Assembly (NCBI GenBank): GCA_002862085.1
Contig: PKCK01000092.1
Span: 1 to 64,000, forward strand
Direction: 5' to 3'
Length of the DNA: 64,000 nucleotides
Source: Planctomycetota bacterium
Lineage (GTDB): Bacteria > Planctomycetota > UBA1135 > GCA-002686595
The translations under genes and the position numbers were made by a program. Shown in pieces: positions 18,671 through 53,399 of this stretch. Below the pieces are notes generated by a model that was given only the letters and a program-made list of their open reading frames with translations, did no database searches and was not told where the DNA came from. The stretch's first letter is position 1; each line of letters starts with the position of its first letter.

Positions 18671-19741
18671 TTAGCGCAGCTGGATGAAGGAGTCACTCGC
18701 GCGCTCGACCACCTCGCCGACGCGATGGACGGGCACGTCCCGCTTCGCCAGCTCGTCCTCGAGCCGCGGCGCGTCCTCCTCGGCCAGCACGATCAGCAGG
18801 CCGCCAGAGGTCTCGGCGTCGTAGGTGATGTCCACGAGGGCCTGATCGAGACCCTCCGCCACGTCGACCTCTCCGGCCAGGGCCGACTTGCCGCGACCCA
18901 CGCCCCCGCTCACGACGCCCTTGGCCGCCAGGTCGCGCGCGCCGGGGAAGAAGGGGACGCTCGCGAGGTCGAAGCGGAAGGTGACGTCCGAGGACGCTGC
19001 GATGTTGCGCGCGTGGCCGTTCAGGCCGAAGCCCGTGATGTCGGTGCAGGCGTGGGCGCCGGCCGCGTTCATGGCCAGCGCCGCGTCGCGGTTGAGGGTC
19101 GCCATCTGCTCGGCGGCCGCGCGCACGGCCTCCTCCGGCGCCTTCTGGAACTTGCCCGCGGTGGTCATGGAGCCCATGCCCAGGGACTTCGTCAGATAGA
19201 CGAGGTCCCCGACCTGCGCGCCGCCGTTGGCGGTCAGCTCCTCGCGCCTCACGAGCCCGGTGACCGCGAAGCCGAACTGGGGCTCCGGAGCCTCGACCGT
19301 GTGCCCGCCCGCGACCACGGCGCCGGCCTCGGCGATCTTCTCGAAGCCTCCGCGGAAGATGTCCGCGACCCACGCCTCCTCGAAGCCCTTGGGGAACCCG
19401 GCGAGATTCAGCGCGCTGATCGGGCGCCCGCCCATGGCGTAGACGTCGCTCAGGGAGTTGGCCGCGGCCACGGCGCCGTACAGGTAGGCGTCGTCGAGGA
19501 CCGGCGGGAAGTAGTCGACCGTCTGGACGAGCAGCGCCTCGCCGCCGGCGGCCAGCCCGTCCTCAGGGCCGATGCGCACGACCCCCGCGTCGTCGACCGT
19601 CTTCGGGCCGACGAGCAGGCGCTCGTCGTCGAACTGCTTCATGTCACGCAGCACCTGCGTGAGCTGCCCCATGGGCATCTTCGCAGCTCAGCCGGCGCAG
19701 GCCGCGTAGTCGGTCAGTCGCTTGTTCCGCTTGAGGCGCAT
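18671..19741 (-). CDS. selD: Selenide, water dikinase, itself a selenoprotein (in-frame TGA)
   Basis: SelD makes selenophosphate from selenide and ATP for selenocysteine synthesis. The conventional frame starts at 19678, but the active-site loop then lies upstream of it. Reading from ATG 19741 gives MRLKRNKRLTDYAACAG, then TGA (19690-19688), then AAKMPMGQLTQVL. This aligns the TGA (codon 18) with the catalytic Cys/Sec17 of E. coli SelD and Lys21 with its essential Lys20. The rest is a full-length SelD: LVGPKTVDDAGV, DAYLYGAVAAANSLSDVYAMGG, GGHTVEAPEP and DITGFGLNGH. A SECIS-like hairpin follows at 19644-19662. A TAAAGT hexamer ends 6 nt before ATG 19741 and supports this start. 356 residues including Sec. 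Confidence 0.93.
19644..19662 (-). promoter_or_regulatory. Bacterial SECIS-like hairpin in selD
   Basis: On the minus strand an 8-bp perfect stem (TCACGCAG/CTGCGTGA) closes a GTG loop. The first loop base G is 34 nt after the TGA, within the 16-37 nt window and with the apical G described for bacterial SECIS elements. A competing hairpin (GAGCTGC/GCAGCTC) lies closer to the TGA. Confidence 0.7.
19688..19690 (-). other. Selenocysteine codon (TGA) of selD
   Basis: An in-frame TGA at codon 18, at the catalytic Cys/Sec position of SelD. Translation is open in the same frame for 17 codons before it and 338 after it. Recoding rather than stop is required for an active N-terminal loop. Confidence 0.88.
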
Positions 19742-21238: not shown

Positions 21239-22672
21239 TCATGCAGAGGCGACCGCTCGGAAGGCCGAGAGCAGGCGCGCCTCGTCCCCTTCGAGCAGCG
21301 CCCGCGGATCCAGGAGGACGCGCCCGTCATGGATGCGCACGAAGACGGGCGGCTCCCCGGCCCGGAGGACGTCGGCGAGGCGGTCCGCACTGCCGCCGTC
21401 CCAGCGCACGCGCACGGCCACCGAGGGCAGGAACACCGTCGGCGCGCTCCCGCTCCCGGGCTGGGACTCCGAGTCGACGACGTCGGCTTGGAAACCGCCG
21501 AGGCCGGCGATCGCGGCGGCGAGTCGGTCCGCGACCGGGCGCAGCTGCTCACGGCTCAGGTGCATGTGCTTGCGGGCAGGCAGCTCGTCCCCGCGCCCCG
21601 CGAGCAGGAGCTCGAGGGTCGCCTCGAGGCCCGACAGCGCGACCTTGTCGAGGCGGAGCGCCCGGTAGATCGGATTCTTGCGGAGGGCGCGGATCGCGGC
21701 GCGTCGGCCGACGATGAGCCCCGCCTGGGGCCCGCCGAGGAGCTTGTCACCGGAGAACGCCACGACGTCGACGCCCGAGGCGACGGCCTCCTTGACGACC
21801 GTCTCGTCGCCCACGATCTCCAGGGAGCGCGCGCCGTCTGCCTCGATCCGCCCCGACCCGAGATCCCAACCCGAGGTCACCCCCCGGTCACGGCCCAGCC
21901 GCGCGAGCTCCTCGGGCGGCACCTCCTCGGTGAAGCCCACGACGCGGTAGTTGCTCGTGTGGACCTTCATCAACAGACCCGTGTCGGCCGTGATCGCGCG
22001 CTCGTAGTCCGCGATGCGCGTGCGGTTCGTCGTGCCCACCTCGACCATGTTCACGCCGGCGCGGGCCATCACGTCCGGGACGCGGAAGGAGCCTCCGATC
22101 TCCACGAGCTCGCCCCGGCTGACGATCGCCTCGCGGCCTCCGGCGAACGTCTGCATCATCAGGAACGCCGCCGCCGCGCAGTTGTTCACGGCGATCCCCG
22201 TCTCGGCCCCGGTCGCCCGGGCCAGCAGCACGCCGAGCCGGCCGTCCCGCTCGTTGCGCCGCGCCGAGTAGCGGTCGAGCTCCAGGACGCAGTAGCCGCG
22301 CGCCGCCGCGGCCATACGCTCGGCCACCTCGGGGTGGACGGGCGCTCGCCCCAGGTTGGTGTGGAGGACGACACCGGTCGCGTTGACCGCCGGCACGACG
22401 CCTCGGCCCGCCTCGCGGGTCGCGCGGGTGACGAGGTCCGCGAGGAGCGCTCCGCGCTCGACGTGCTCCTTCACCGCCGCGGCGTCGAGCTTCTCCGCGC
22501 CGATGCGCTGGCGCAGGGCGTCGAGCGCGTCCTGCGCCAGCTCGACGCGGACCGCCCCGGGGATCCGCGCGAGCGGCCCCGCCCCGTCAGCCTCTCCGAG
22601 GCTCCGGACGAGCTCGTCCACCGACGGCAGGGCGCGGAAGGGGTTGGCGGATCGCTCGGGGGTCTCGGGCAT
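21239..22672 (-). CDS. selA: L-seryl-tRNA(Sec) selenium transferase
   Basis: SelA is a PLP enzyme that turns seryl-tRNA(Sec) into selenocysteinyl-tRNA(Sec) using selenophosphate. The 477-residue protein has the expected N-terminal helical domain (LPSVDELVRSLG). The fold-type I core follows with NATGVVLHTNLGRAP, AVNNCAAAAFLM, SRGELVEIGGSFRVPDVM and EVGTTNRT. PLP lysine 310 lies in FSGDKLLGGPQAGLIVG. The ATG at 22672 begins the family N-terminus. It lies close to selD (the UDP-sugar dehydrogenase is between) and diverges from recJ. selB and selC were not found in the window. Confidence 0.95.
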   Translation of the reverse strand: MPETPERSANPFRALPSVDELVRSLGEADGAGPLARIPGAVRVELAQDALDALRQRIGAEKLDAAAVKEHVERGALLADLVTRATREAGRGVVPAVNATGVVLHTNLGRAPVHPEVAERMAAAARGYCVLELDRYSARRNERDGRLGVLLARATGAETGIAVNNCAAAAFLMMQTFAGGREAIVSRGELVEIGGSFRVPDVMARAGVNMVEVGTTNRTRIADYERAITADTGLLMKVHTSNYRVVGFTEEVPPEELARLGRDRGVTSGWDLGSGRIEADGARSLEIVGDETVVKEAVASGVDVVAFSGDKLLGGPQAGLIVGRRAAIRALRKNPIYRALRLDKVALSGLEATLELLLAGRGDELPARKHMHLSREQLRPVADRLAAAIAGLGGFQADVVDSESQPGSGSAPTVFLPSVAVRVRWDGGSADRLADVLRAGEPPVFVRIHDGRVLLDPRALLEGDEARLLSAFRAVASA

Positions 22673-46983: not shown

Positions 46984-48735
<1,752 letters not shown>

Positions 48736-48988: not shown

Positions 48989-51217
48989 ATGAACAAAGAC
49001 CGCTTGCTTCGCTTCGCGACGCGCGTCCTGATCGTGTTCGGCTGCACCGCGGCCTTCACGAACTGGACCTTCGCCTTCCAGTGATGAGGCGCCGGCCCTC
49101 GCGCTCCCGGTGGGAGCGCGCCCGGTGACACCGCCGGCGGCGGTGGTGGCAGTCAAGGTCCTGGCGCGACGGGCGGCGGCGGAGGGCCGGCCGGACCCAG
49201 CGGCCCGGCTGGACCGCCCGCGCCCGGAGCCCCCCCCGCGGGCAACCCCGGGGCCATGGGCGTGCCCGAGGTCCCGACGGGCATGGGAGGCCTCCCGGTC
49301 CTGCCCGGCGAGGATCCCTACGACCTCGACCGCTACGGCCAGACGACCGATCCGAACGACTGGCAGCTGTGGTGGCAGTTCAACCGCGACCGCTTCCTGC
49401 GCTTCTCCGGCATCAACACCGGCGGTGCGTACACCGGCTCCGACGGCGTCTACCTCGGCCGCGGCCAGGTCAGCCGCGAGACCATCGGCGGGCGCGCGAG
49501 CGATGCGCTGATCGACACGGTGCTCTCCGACGCCCTCCAGAAGGGCATCCAGAAGGGCTGCACCAACCGATTCAGCCAGAGCGCTCTCGTCGCGATGTCC
49601 AAGGTCGGTGGCGAGCACCAGCGCGTCTACGACTTCATGACCCGTTGGTACCTCGCCAACGGCACGCCCGAGATGCATCCGACCGCGGCCTTCCTCCTCG
49701 GAGTGATGGGCGGCGAGCAGAACATCGAGCTCCTGCGCGACATCGCCCTCAACACGAAGGCAGGCTGCGAGGCTATCACGCCCGGGGGCAAGCCGACGAC
49801 GGCGCGGGTCCCCATGGACATCCGCTCCTTCGCCGCCTACGGCCTCGGCATGATCGGCTCGCGCTCCCCCAAGCAGGAGGTGCGCCAGGCGATCGTCGAG
49901 GCACTCGTCGAGATCATCGAGAACGACGCGAGCGAGGCCAACGACGCACGCGTCGCCGCGATGATCGCCATGGGCCTCGTGCCCCTGCACGTCGACGAGG
50001 ACGTCGTGGCGTGCTACTGCGGCACCTGCGTGGTCCCCGATCCCCACACGTCGCTGCGGCCCCAGGTCACGTACCTGATGCGCTACTTCACCGCGACGAA
50101 GGAGTTCGATCCGGTGCTGCGCTCCCACACCGCGACCACCCTGGCTCGCCTCGTGGCCGCTCGTCCCGAGGGCATGACCAACCGCATGAAGGAGGGCGTC
50201 GCAGAGGTCCTCATCCGCGCGCTGCGGAAGTCCTCGCGCCAGCCCGAGAACGTGCGCGAGAGCTCGGTGCTCGCCCTGGGCCTGATCGGCGACGCCGACG
50301 ACGACGCGGTCGACGAATGGATCCGCTGGCAGATCCGCAAGTCGATCAAGTCCGGCGGCGACATGGAGAAGCGCTTCGCGCTGATCTCCCTGGCCGAGGT
50401 CGGCGGCCACCGCGGGCAGGGCGATGAGCCCTTCAGCGCGCTGGCCGAGATTCGCTCGACCCTGCGGGGCGAGCTCGTGCGCGGCAAGAAGCGCGTGAAG
50501 CCCTGGGCTGCCCTCGCGGTCGGCGTGCTCGGCTTCGAGCTCGGCGCCAAGGGCCAGGCCCTCGACGTGGAGCTGGACACCGCTCTCGGCAACGTCATCC
50601 GCGCGGGCAAGCGCGTGGACGACCTCGGTGCTTTCGCCCTCGCAGCAGGCATGCGCGGGTCCATCGCTCTCATGCCCAAGCTGCGGCCGAAGGTCGAGCG
50701 CACCCGCGACGCGGCCGCCCGCGGCTACGTCGCGATGGGCCTCGGGATGCTCCAGGACAAGGAGTCGATCGAGGTGCTCAAGGAGACCTTCGCCGAGGGC
50801 CAGGGTGCACCGGTGCTGCAGATGCGCACGGGCCTCGCGCTCGGCCTCCTCGGAGAGGGCAGCGTGGTCGACGGGCTGCTCGAGTCCATGAGGAAGGCCG
50901 CTGCGGCCTACGAGGCGCTCGACAAGAACGCGACCGAGCGCCAGCGACTCGAGGCCGAGGGCGAGCTCGTCGCAGCGATCACGGCCCTCGGGTACATCGG
51001 GGACAAGCGCGCGCTCGACGAGCTCTGCCGCATCACGGTGGACGACGAGGACGAGTTCCCGCCGGCGGCTCGCGAGGCCGCCGTGGTGGGCCTCGGGATG
51101 CTGGGCGACCGCTCCCCGCAACCGTGGCGCCTGGCGCTGACCCTGGGCGCCAACTACCGCGCCCGCACAGCGACCCTCACCACCGGTGAGCGCACCGGAG
51201 TCCTCGACCTCGAGTGA
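48989..51217 (+). CDS. Secreted HEAT-repeat protein with tandem in-frame TGA codons (probable Sec-Sec selenoprotein)
   Basis: From ATG 48989 the frame encodes a signal peptide (MNKDRLLRFATR, then VLIVFGCTAAFTNW, likely cut after TFA). It then meets two consecutive TGA codons (49082-49087). It continues in the same frame through a Gly/Pro/Ala-rich linker (GAGPRAPGGSAPGDTAGGGG...) into the conventional ORF that starts at ATG 49256. That ORF alone has no signal peptide. The remaining 650 residues hold about ten HEAT-type helical repeats (AAYGLGMIG, SVLALGLIGD, GYVAMGLGML, TGLALGLLGE, ITALGYIGD, AVVGLGMLGD) and a CYCGTC motif. A SECIS-like hairpin (49100-49120) follows the TGAs. With recoding the protein has 742 residues. 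If the TGAs are true stops, the gene starts at 49256. The HEAT call is sure; the recoding is an inference. Confidence 0.72.
49082..49087 (+). other. Tandem TGA-TGA, candidate Sec-Sec dipeptide
   Basis: Two adjacent in-frame TGA codons (codons 32 and 33), a few residues after the predicted signal-peptide cleavage site. The window also contains selA and a Sec-containing selD. The alternative is that these are ordinary double stops of a 31-codon ORF. Confidence 0.6.
49100..49120 (+). promoter_or_regulatory. SECIS-like hairpin after the tandem TGA
   Basis: A perfect 9-bp stem (CGCGCTCCC/GGGAGCGCG) closes a GGT loop. The first loop G lies 25 nt after the first TGA and 22 nt after the second, inside the 16-37 nt window for bacterial SECIS elements, and the loop begins with G as the consensus requires. 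Confidence 0.6.
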
Positions 51218-51340: not shown

Positions 51341-52351
51341 ATGCACTGGTCCGAACTCCCCCGCGAAGCGCTGCTCGACAGGCGCATCGGGGACCTCGGC
51401 GTGACCATCGAGGATTCGCCACTGGCGCCGCGCCTCGCGGCCCTGGATCGAGAGCTGGAGGCTCGCGGCCTGCTCTTCCGACCCTACACCTGGCTCTCCA
51501 CGGAGTGGTTCGCGCCGGATGGCGCCACGGGCTTCGCGATTCCGTTCTTCCTCGCCCACCCGCGGCTCGTCAGGCTCGAGAGGAGCCAGATGCTCGAGGT
51601 GGAGGGAGGATCCGCGGCGGAGTGCATGAAGCTCCTGCGCCACGAGACCGCCCACGCCATCGACAACGCCTATGGCCTGCGGCGGCGCCGCCGCTTCCGC
51701 GACATCTTCGGCCGGCCGGGGCTTCCCTACCGCGCGAGCTACTCGCCCGACCCGACGAGCCGCGACTACGTCCTTCACCTGGATTACTGGTACTCCCAGT
51801 CCCACCCCCTCGAGGACTTCGCGGAGACCTTCGCGGTCTGGCTCGGACCCGGTAGCCGCTGGCGCAAGCGGTACGCGGGCTGGCCCGCCCTCGAGAAGCT
51901 CCTCTACGTGGACGAGCTGATGGACGAGATTCGTGACGCGCCGCCGAAGCTCCGCACGCGGCGCCGCGAGGAGCCGGCCCACGGAGTCCAGCGGACACTG
52001 CGCGCCTACTACGCGCAGAAGAAGGCCCACTACGCGGAAGAAGCCACGCCGGCCTTCGACGGCCAGCTCGAGCGAGCCTTCGCTCTCCCCGAGGACGCGG
52101 CGCCGCGCGCCCCCCGGCTCGCCCCCTTCCTCCGCGAGCATCGACGTGACCTCGTCGCGCGGGTCGCCCGCTCCACCGGCCAGCACCGCTACCTGCTCGA
52201 CCACGTGGTCCGCGAGATGATCGCCCGGGCCAAGTCCCGGGAGCTGCGCCTCTCCTCCAGCCGGGAGTCTTCGCTGCTCGACGCGGCCGTCGTCCTCACG
52301 TCCCTCACCGGCCACTTCCTCTACGGCGGCTCGCCCCGCTACCACCGCTGA
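51341..52351 (+). CDS. Putative zinc metallopeptidase (HExxH, Peptidase_Mx-like)
   Basis: A 336-residue predicted soluble protein. H101-E102-T-A-H105 (LLRHETAHAIDNAYG) is a gluzincin-type zinc site. HPLEDFAETFAVWL at about 155-168 supplies the probable third ligand (Glu158 or Glu162). The length and spacing match the putative zinc-binding metallopeptidase family found in many Planctomycetota and Proteobacteria. It has no signal peptide, so it should act in the cytoplasm. An ATP-grasp ligase gene begins 10 bp downstream, so the two are an operon and probably make and trim the same product. Confidence 0.8.
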   Translation: MHWSELPREALLDRRIGDLGVTIEDSPLAPRLAALDRELEARGLLFRPYTWLSTEWFAPDGATGFAIPFFLAHPRLVRLERSQMLEVEGGSAAECMKLLRHETAHAIDNAYGLRRRRRFRDIFGRPGLPYRASYSPDPTSRDYVLHLDYWYSQSHPLEDFAETFAVWLGPGSRWRKRYAGWPALEKLLYVDELMDEIRDAPPKLRTRRREEPAHGVQRTLRAYYAQKKAHYAEEATPAFDGQLERAFALPEDAAPRAPRLAPFLREHRRDLVARVARSTGQHRYLLDHVVREMIARAKSRELRLSSSRESSLLDAAVVLTSLTGHFLYGGSPRYHR

Positions 52352-52361
52352 CGCACCCACG

Positions 52362-53399
52362 ATGCCCCGCTCGTCCAGGCTTCGAATCGCCGTGCTCATG
52401 CACGAGGCTCTCGTCCCGCCCGAGTCCATCGCGGGCCTCGACGACGAGCAGGTCGATCAATTCAAGATGGAGTACGACGTCACGACCGCGCTCCAGGGCC
52501 TCGGGCATGACGTGATCCACGTGCCGGTCGCCGACGAGCTCAAACCGATCCGGGCGGCGCTCCGGGAACACCGGCCCCACGTGGCCTTCAACCTCCTGAT
52601 GCACTTCCACGACGCGGGGATCTACGACTCCGCGGTCGTCGCCTGGCTCGAGCTGCGCAAACAGCGCTACACCGGCTGCAACCCTCGCGGCTTGCTCGTG
52701 GCCAACGACAAGGCCCTCTGCAAGAAGGTCCTCCACTACCACAGGATCCGCGCGCCGAAGTTCTTCGTCGTGCCCCGCGGGAAAGCTCCCAAGAAGCTCC
52801 CGAAGGGCCTCCGCTGGCCGCTCTTCGTGAAGTCGCGCAGCGAGCACTCGTCCACGGGGATCAGCCAGGCCTCGATCGTCCACGACCCCGAGCAGCTGAG
52901 CGCCCGGGTCAACTACGTCCACGAGCAGGTGGGGACCGCAGCACTTTGCGAGGAGTACATCGAGGGGCGCGAGCTCACCATCGGCGTGCTCGGCAACAAG
53001 CGCGTCGAGGTCTCGCCGGTGTGGGAGATCTTCATGGACGACCTGCCCGCCGGCGTGGCGAACATCACCACGAGCCGCGTGAAGTGGGATCGCGCCTACC
53101 AGAAGAAGATCGGCCTGCGCACCGGCCCCGCGGAGGGCCTCGACGGGGCCACCGTCGCGCGCATCCAGCGCACCGCTCGGCGTATCCACCGCGCACTGGG
53201 GCTCTCCGGTTACAGCCGCATCGACATGCGGATGGACGCGGACGGCCAGGTCTGGATCCTCGAGGCGAATCCCAATCCCGACCTGTGCTTCGGCGAGGAC
53301 TTCGCCGAGAGCTTCGAGACGCGCGGCTACTCCTACCCCGAGCTCCTGATGAAGATCGTGCGCCTCGGCCGCTCCTACGAGGCCCCCTGGATGGGCTGA
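52362..53399 (+). CDS. ATP-grasp ligase, D-Ala-D-Ala ligase-like
   Basis: A 345-residue ATP-grasp enzyme. Elements resembling Ddl can be read: RPHVAFNLLMHFHDAGIYDS, GLLVANDKALCKKVLHYHRI, PLFVKSRSEHSSTGIS (ATP lysine), CEEYIEGRELTIGVLGNKR and the metal site WILEANPNPDL. It forms an amide or peptide bond through an acyl-phosphate. A true Ddl is possible because thrS and the mur cluster follow. Pairing with a metallopeptidase and its Ddl-atypical N-terminus (LMHEALVPPESI) suggest a dedicated peptide- or amine-ligating role instead. Confidence 0.82.
   Translation: MPRSSRLRIAVLMHEALVPPESIAGLDDEQVDQFKMEYDVTTALQGLGHDVIHVPVADELKPIRAALREHRPHVAFNLLMHFHDAGIYDSAVVAWLELRKQRYTGCNPRGLLVANDKALCKKVLHYHRIRAPKFFVVPRGKAPKKLPKGLRWPLFVKSRSEHSSTGISQASIVHDPEQLSARVNYVHEQVGTAALCEEYIEGRELTIGVLGNKRVEVSPVWEIFMDDLPAGVANITTSRVKWDRAYQKKIGLRTGPAEGLDGATVARIQRTARRIHRALGLSGYSRIDMRMDADGQVWILEANPNPDLCFGEDFAESFETRGYSYPELLMKIVRLGRSYEAPWMG

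Follow-up and report, generated by a model that had tools for sequence, protein, structure and literature searches.

A predicted secreted HEAT-repeat protein with two consecutive in-frame UGA codons is a probable Sec-Sec selenoprotein in Planctomycetota

A predicted export signal, a UGA pair and a HEAT-repeat solenoid share one reading frame

The window analysed here is a 64-kb stretch of DNA (64,000 nucleotides) from a 4.39 Mb planctomycete MAG of 132 contigs. When TGA is read as a residue, positions 48989-51217 of its forward strand form a single frame of 742 residues, which opens with an ATG at 48989, runs through TGA TGA at 49082-49087 and continues uninterrupted as far as the closing TGA at 51215-51217, as the first-pass annotation had described. 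Because the gene's own stop is TGA, this codon still serves as a stop in the genome. The frame begins with a signal peptide (48989..49075, +), recognised by inspection, by its conservation in orthologues and by substitutions biased to third codon positions, with a predicted cleavage between TFA and FQUU. The TGA pair, which we read as Sec32-Sec33, is followed by a Gly/Pro-rich linker (49088..49330, +, end approximate) and a HEAT-repeat solenoid (49331..51214, +, start approximate) that contains the loop CYCGTC (50012..50029, +). HEAT is the only Pfam family in the product, with HEAT_2 at 57.1 bits and HEAT_PBS at 49.7 against gathering cut-offs of 27.7 and 20.9, respectively.

A structure model built from six sequences reaches a modest overall pLDDT of 61.5. 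Inspection of the model reveals helical repeats over the solenoid, no confident structure for residues 1-142 (pLDDT below 50) and a low-confidence stretch between helices at model residues 313-318, which correspond to the CxCGxC loop. A Foldseek comparison with the PDB, for which this modest model was the query, returned generic HEAT/ARM solenoids.

Under the standard code the open reading frame begins after the TGA pair, and the product then lacks the signal peptide as well as the reactive head. An internal ATG at 49256 gives a 653-aa ORF and UGA UGA is a strong stop, both of which would suit a HEAT protein that starts at 49256 behind an ordinary stop subject to read-through, a frameshift, an assembly error or a pseudogene. 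The substitution pattern argues otherwise. Of 56 substitutions in the signal peptide, counted over nine non-independent pairs, 38 fall at third codon positions; the linker gives 42 of 56 over four pairs, and one pair (L047/L048) has little third-position bias (6/14). Judged from these substitutions, the signal peptide and linker are under protein-level constraint, which counts against a start at 49256.

The genome encodes the machinery for Sec insertion

The window carries selA (21257..22639, -) and selD (18773..19720, -), each over its NCBIfam cut-off. The selD gene contains one in-frame TGA, indicating that selenophosphate synthetase is itself probably a selenoprotein. Genes for SelB and tRNA-Sec lie outside the window in the same genome, also over cut-off, in line with the earlier statement that this genome decodes TGA as Sec. 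Among 61 genomes, namely that of the window and 60 relatives, 59 score over cut-off for tRNA-Sec and 59 for selB; the corresponding counts among 14 control genomes are five and two. No other UGA-reading tRNA was found within the 64-kb window.

Orthologues retain the UGA pair or exchange its first codon for Cys

A six-frame search of 81 genomes of the family at E 1e-95 yielded 25 clade-A rows, three of which are truncated by a contig end short of the site (G010, G095, G072), leaving 22 readable N-termini. Inspection of these reveals TGA TGA in nine (G000, G001, G002, G003, G007, G008, G018, G030, G079) and TGC TGA, encoding Cys-Sec, in 11 (G021, G025, G026, G073-G077, G097-G099); one has Ser-Cys (G009) and one, the second G026 copy, has neither. 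An in-frame UGA is thus present in 20 of 22 readable genes. Exchange between Sec and Cys is seen mainly at the first site (TGA in nine, TGC in 11) and at the second site only as the Ser-Cys of G009. The first-pass annotation had proposed looking for a signal peptide linked to UU, UC, CU or CC, and by inspection the site directly follows a signal-peptide-like start in all 20 Sec-bearing clade-A genes, nine with UU and 11 with CU. Neither an indel nor a signal peptide fused through another frame, both named beforehand as outcomes that would speak against a Sec-Sec protein, appeared among the orthologues.

Within the genus of the window, five further genomes carry the gene (G001, G002, G003, G007, G008), all with TGA TGA in the same frame, so that the continuity of the frame is not attributable to chance. 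These five genes are spread over four assembly series with different names, a point against an error of sequencing common to all. Three other genomes of the genus with the Sec trait (G004, G005, G006; 82-88% complete) gave no match at the search level. Across 154 genomes of the class, each genome that has a match at E 1e-90 is a member of the window's own family, with at most seven candidates scored per genome. A search of the same 154 genomes with the pattern AQG-[TGN]-TGA-G, which is unable to match the window's own site, returned 27 matches, of which 14 belong to the HEAT family and 13 appear chance-like on reading their translations; the reversed pattern used as a control returned 15.

The UU head occurs in three places of the tree, one of them beside CU in the same genus (G018 versus G097-G099). 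G009 and the UU clades sit on weakly supported forks (80/55, 88/90), and we therefore claim at least two Cys/Sec switches, not three. Given that Cys-Sec is the commoner head, Sec-Sec seems to be a repeated variant of it.

The position of a Cys directly behind a signal peptide in the CU members would also be expected of a lipoprotein in which this Cys, or the first Sec, is the lipidated +1 residue. Directly ahead of the site, inspection shows mostly AQG, AFQ or QAQ, not the lipobox of lipoproteins, and the residue in question is Sec in nine genomes, such that lipidation is a very improbable role for the head.

A covarying hairpin follows the UGA pair

Downstream of the pair lies the hairpin CGCGCTCCC-GGT-GGGAGCGCG (49100..49120, +), whose 9-bp stem and GGU loop were noted in the first-pass annotation and are confirmed here. 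It begins 12 nt after the second TGA, and 21 nt separate that codon from the loop. Among 2000 synonymous recodings of this stretch, mismatch-free triloop stems that reach 9 bp or more within the allowed range turn up at a rate of 0.001. In clade A, each of the 20 Sec-bearing genes carries a triloop hairpin that opens 18-21 nt after the second TGA, with perfect stems of 5-9 bp and the loop GGT in 19 (GTG in G025). The synonymous-recoding P is at most 0.07 in 19 of these and 0.19 in G026, values that come from related genes and are not independent. The Ser-Cys orthologue G009 has no such hairpin.

Covariation was analysed with 12 distinct rows standing for 19 sequences, G025 with its GTG loop being excluded as misaligned. 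Paired cells amount to 96.4%, versus 78.7 on shuffling, and both partners vary in four of seven pairs. Covariation scores 0.487 versus 0.129, a level that none of 500 shuffles attains, and the score falls to 0.12 or less when the partner is slid by 1-3 columns. Two of the five covariation measures are weaker, namely both-side pair changes (14/500 shuffles) and further pair types (42/500). The third pair from the loop occurs as AU, UA, GC and CG, plus GU once; because the 3' member of this pair coincides with a Gly wobble position, protein coding provides no explanation for its variation.

When total folding energy is computed for the first 48 nt that follow the TGA, the native sequences do not fall below their synonymous recodings (z between -0.8 and +2.4 across the 20 Sec-bearing genes of clade A), which weighs against a structured element and is explained by the GC-rich character of the stretch. 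The evidence for the hairpin is the specific stem-loop and its covariation. At gathering threshold, Rfam detects only a TPP riboswitch in the 64-kb window.

The bacterial SECIS model, as given in PMC13188914, specifies a spacing of 16-37 nt, a loop of 3-9 nt with G in its first two positions and a stem of 4-16 bp, and the clade-A hairpins fall within it in loop, stem and spacing. The likeness to the bSECIS selenoproteins of that model extends to Cys/Sec exchange and to the accompanying Sec machinery. They differ from the present case, where two adjacent UGA codons apparently share one hairpin and the product is an exported HEAT protein.

The sharing of a single hairpin could also mean that Sec is inserted at the second UGA only, with the first read as Cys or some other residue (a UGA-reading tRNA being one possible route), so that all heads would be Cys-Sec; Cys is indeed the more frequent first residue, in 11 of the 20 Sec-bearing genes of clade A. 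We regard this as improbable, with the search for other UGA-reading tRNAs covering the 64-kb window, since the first codon is TGA in nine of nine UU genes and lies 21-24 nt from the loop, within the published 16-37 nt; the first-pass annotation had stated a SECIS-like distance for both codons. Ordinary stop read-through, a frameshift, an assembly error or a pseudogene is extremely unlikely in light of a pair conserved in nine genomes, a first-site Cys in 11 and a covarying hairpin. With UU and CU orthologues, this hairpin and the Sec machinery all in favour, the earlier proposal of a probable Sec-Sec selenoprotein gains support: on these sequence comparisons, the gene very probably encodes a bacterial selenoprotein in which UGA UGA is read as Sec-Sec.

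A sister clade has a single UGA, and Sec-bearing members share a cysteine-containing loop

With the G022 gene as query, the 81 genomes yielded seven more single-TGA genes (G061, G062, G036, G087, G088, G090, G029). In all eight genes of this clade B a single TGA occupies the corresponding position behind the signal peptide, placing Sec near the mature N-terminus in two clades of the HEAT family. Their heads read QCUG, QGCUG, GQUG or PGUGPGGC. Each gene has a hairpin of 7-11 bp when one mismatch is allowed and G is required in the first two loop positions; taken individually, the perfect stems are non-significant (P 0.07-0.65).

Inspection of the solenoid indicates a second conserved feature. 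The loop after the GLVPL helix is CxCGxC in 25 of 25 clade-A rows and in none of six HGG paralogues in the alignment, and the same loop reads C...HxC in all eight clade-B genes. Each of the 28 Sec-bearing genes thus has at least two Cys in one inter-helix loop. Among 19 HGG genes picked by their HGG motif, the loop was located in 16, of which 14 have no Cys in it and two have one. G009 and the second G026 copy lack Sec yet keep CxCGxC, indicating that the loop is not strictly Sec-dependent.

The HGG paralogues occur in the same genomes and resemble the Sec-bearing proteins in their signal peptide, Gly-rich linker and HEAT solenoid. They differ in a His-Gly-Gly head in place of Cys/Sec and in the missing loop Cys pair of the 16 located. 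Eighteen non-Sec paralogue loci (L002, L016-L032), the best match in most genomes, carry HGG[TQSN][YS]RGPGDTVP after the signal peptide. An N-terminal His of this kind could act as a copper-brace-like ligand.

The metal-binding-like character of HGG in these 18 loci brings forward the main rival for function, in which the Sec-Sec protein is real and its head is a soft-metal ligand, such that the N-terminus, the Sec-Sec or Cys-Sec pair and CxCGxC would coordinate extracytoplasmic Cu(I), Hg, Cd or Zn. CxCGxC likewise resembles a metal ligand. We consider this reading possible but on balance unlikely: Sec is usually retained for redox catalysis, and one paralogue in the window's own genome (L003) is without HGG. 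The tetrapeptide GCUG, moreover, is a known redox motif, described in PMC10452626 as the C-terminal active site of mammalian thioredoxin reductase, where it sits on a flexible tail and is reduced by a second Cys centre.

Relation to known selenoproteins and a proposed mechanism

The resemblance to thioredoxin reductase lies in Gly-Cys-Sec-Gly on a flexible tail together with a second Cys centre. In contrast to that enzyme, an FAD/NADPH flavoenzyme without HEAT repeats whose Cys-Sec motif is C-terminal, the present motif is N-terminal, occurs on a protein with HEAT repeats only and includes Sec-Sec. Consecutive Sec-Sec was first claimed for the thioredoxin-like algal protein PDI_e with its motif GUGUU (PMC7539508). 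Both proteins thus have two adjacent Sec from consecutive TGA codons, and differ in that GUGUU on a thioredoxin-like fold is replaced here by QUUG, HEAT repeats and a bacterial-type hairpin. Some archaeal FrhD/VhuD have multiple Sec residues (PMC13188914), and Planctomycetes with selenoproteins have already been described (PMC4807772).

The first-pass annotation knew of no described family with this layout. The algal precedent removes the adjacent Sec-Sec itself from that statement, which holds provisionally for bacteria. A term search found neither Planctomycetes, HEAT nor diselenide in the available text of two reviews of prokaryotes (PMC13188914, PMC9312934), and neither Planctomycetes nor HEAT in that of the deep-Sep paper (PMC12013277). 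Among the matches listed, as represented by titles and the starts of abstracts and with subscription literature thinly covered, there was no bacterial case of adjacent UGA/Sec, of a HEAT selenoprotein or of a secreted selenoprotein. Sec-Sec is accordingly put forward as new in bacteria on a provisional basis. On the sequence evidence, the bacterial selenoprotein family with a Cys-Sec or Sec-Sec head is genuine and unusual.

To account for these features, we propose that SelB and tRNA-Sec would decode both UGA codons using the single hairpin just downstream. Export and cleavage would then leave a mature N-terminus of about F-Q-Sec-Sec-Gly, with the Sec pair carried on a Gly/Pro-rich tether ahead of the HEAT solenoid. 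The pair may cycle between a reduced form and a diselenide, replaced in the CU relatives by a selenenylsulfide, and pass electrons to and from the CxCGxC loop or external substrates in a manner akin to the GCUG arm and second Cys centre of thioredoxin reductase. Against such a cycle stands the difficulty of reducing a diselenide in an oxidising compartment. By analogy, the most likely function, with about an even chance, is that of a redox head, Cys-Sec or Sec-Sec, borne on a flexible tether by an exported protein; the diselenide or metal role that the first-pass annotation suggested for the pair stays at the level of inference. A broader proposal, which we hold more tentatively and at somewhat less than even odds, is that this lineage evolved vicinal Sec-Sec at least twice, from or beside Cys-Sec, and that a swinging diselenide arm on a disordered tether together with CxCGxC on a HEAT scaffold constitutes an undescribed extracytoplasmic redox type made from two UGAs and one SECIS.

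The family provides an evolutionarily supported bacterial Sec-Sec motif with natural UU and CU versions to compare. It thereby makes testable whether one bacterial SECIS can serve two consecutive UGA codons, what a vicinal diselenide does beyond a selenenylsulfide and why a costly residue is placed at the tip of an exported protein.

Gene neighbourhood

The neighbourhood was compared across the window and 14 of the 15 regions from relatives (G030 left out). The recurrent neighbours listed, which are unannotated, include no recognisable redox partner. A thiC relative lies beside the gene in nine of 11 clade-A regions. In the window, thiC (46987-48642, -) adjoins the gene and has a TPP riboswitch at 48631-48724 (-). 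Downstream lies a pair at 51341-53399 (+) that consists of an ORF without an NCBIfam match, which we take from its motif to be metallopeptidase-like, and an ATP-grasp protein resembling D-Ala-D-Ala ligase at scores below the curated cut-offs shown. Elsewhere in the family, secreted HEAT paralogues stand in arrays of five or six neighbouring copies (G036:C349:17855-30793, G032:C37, G016:C349).
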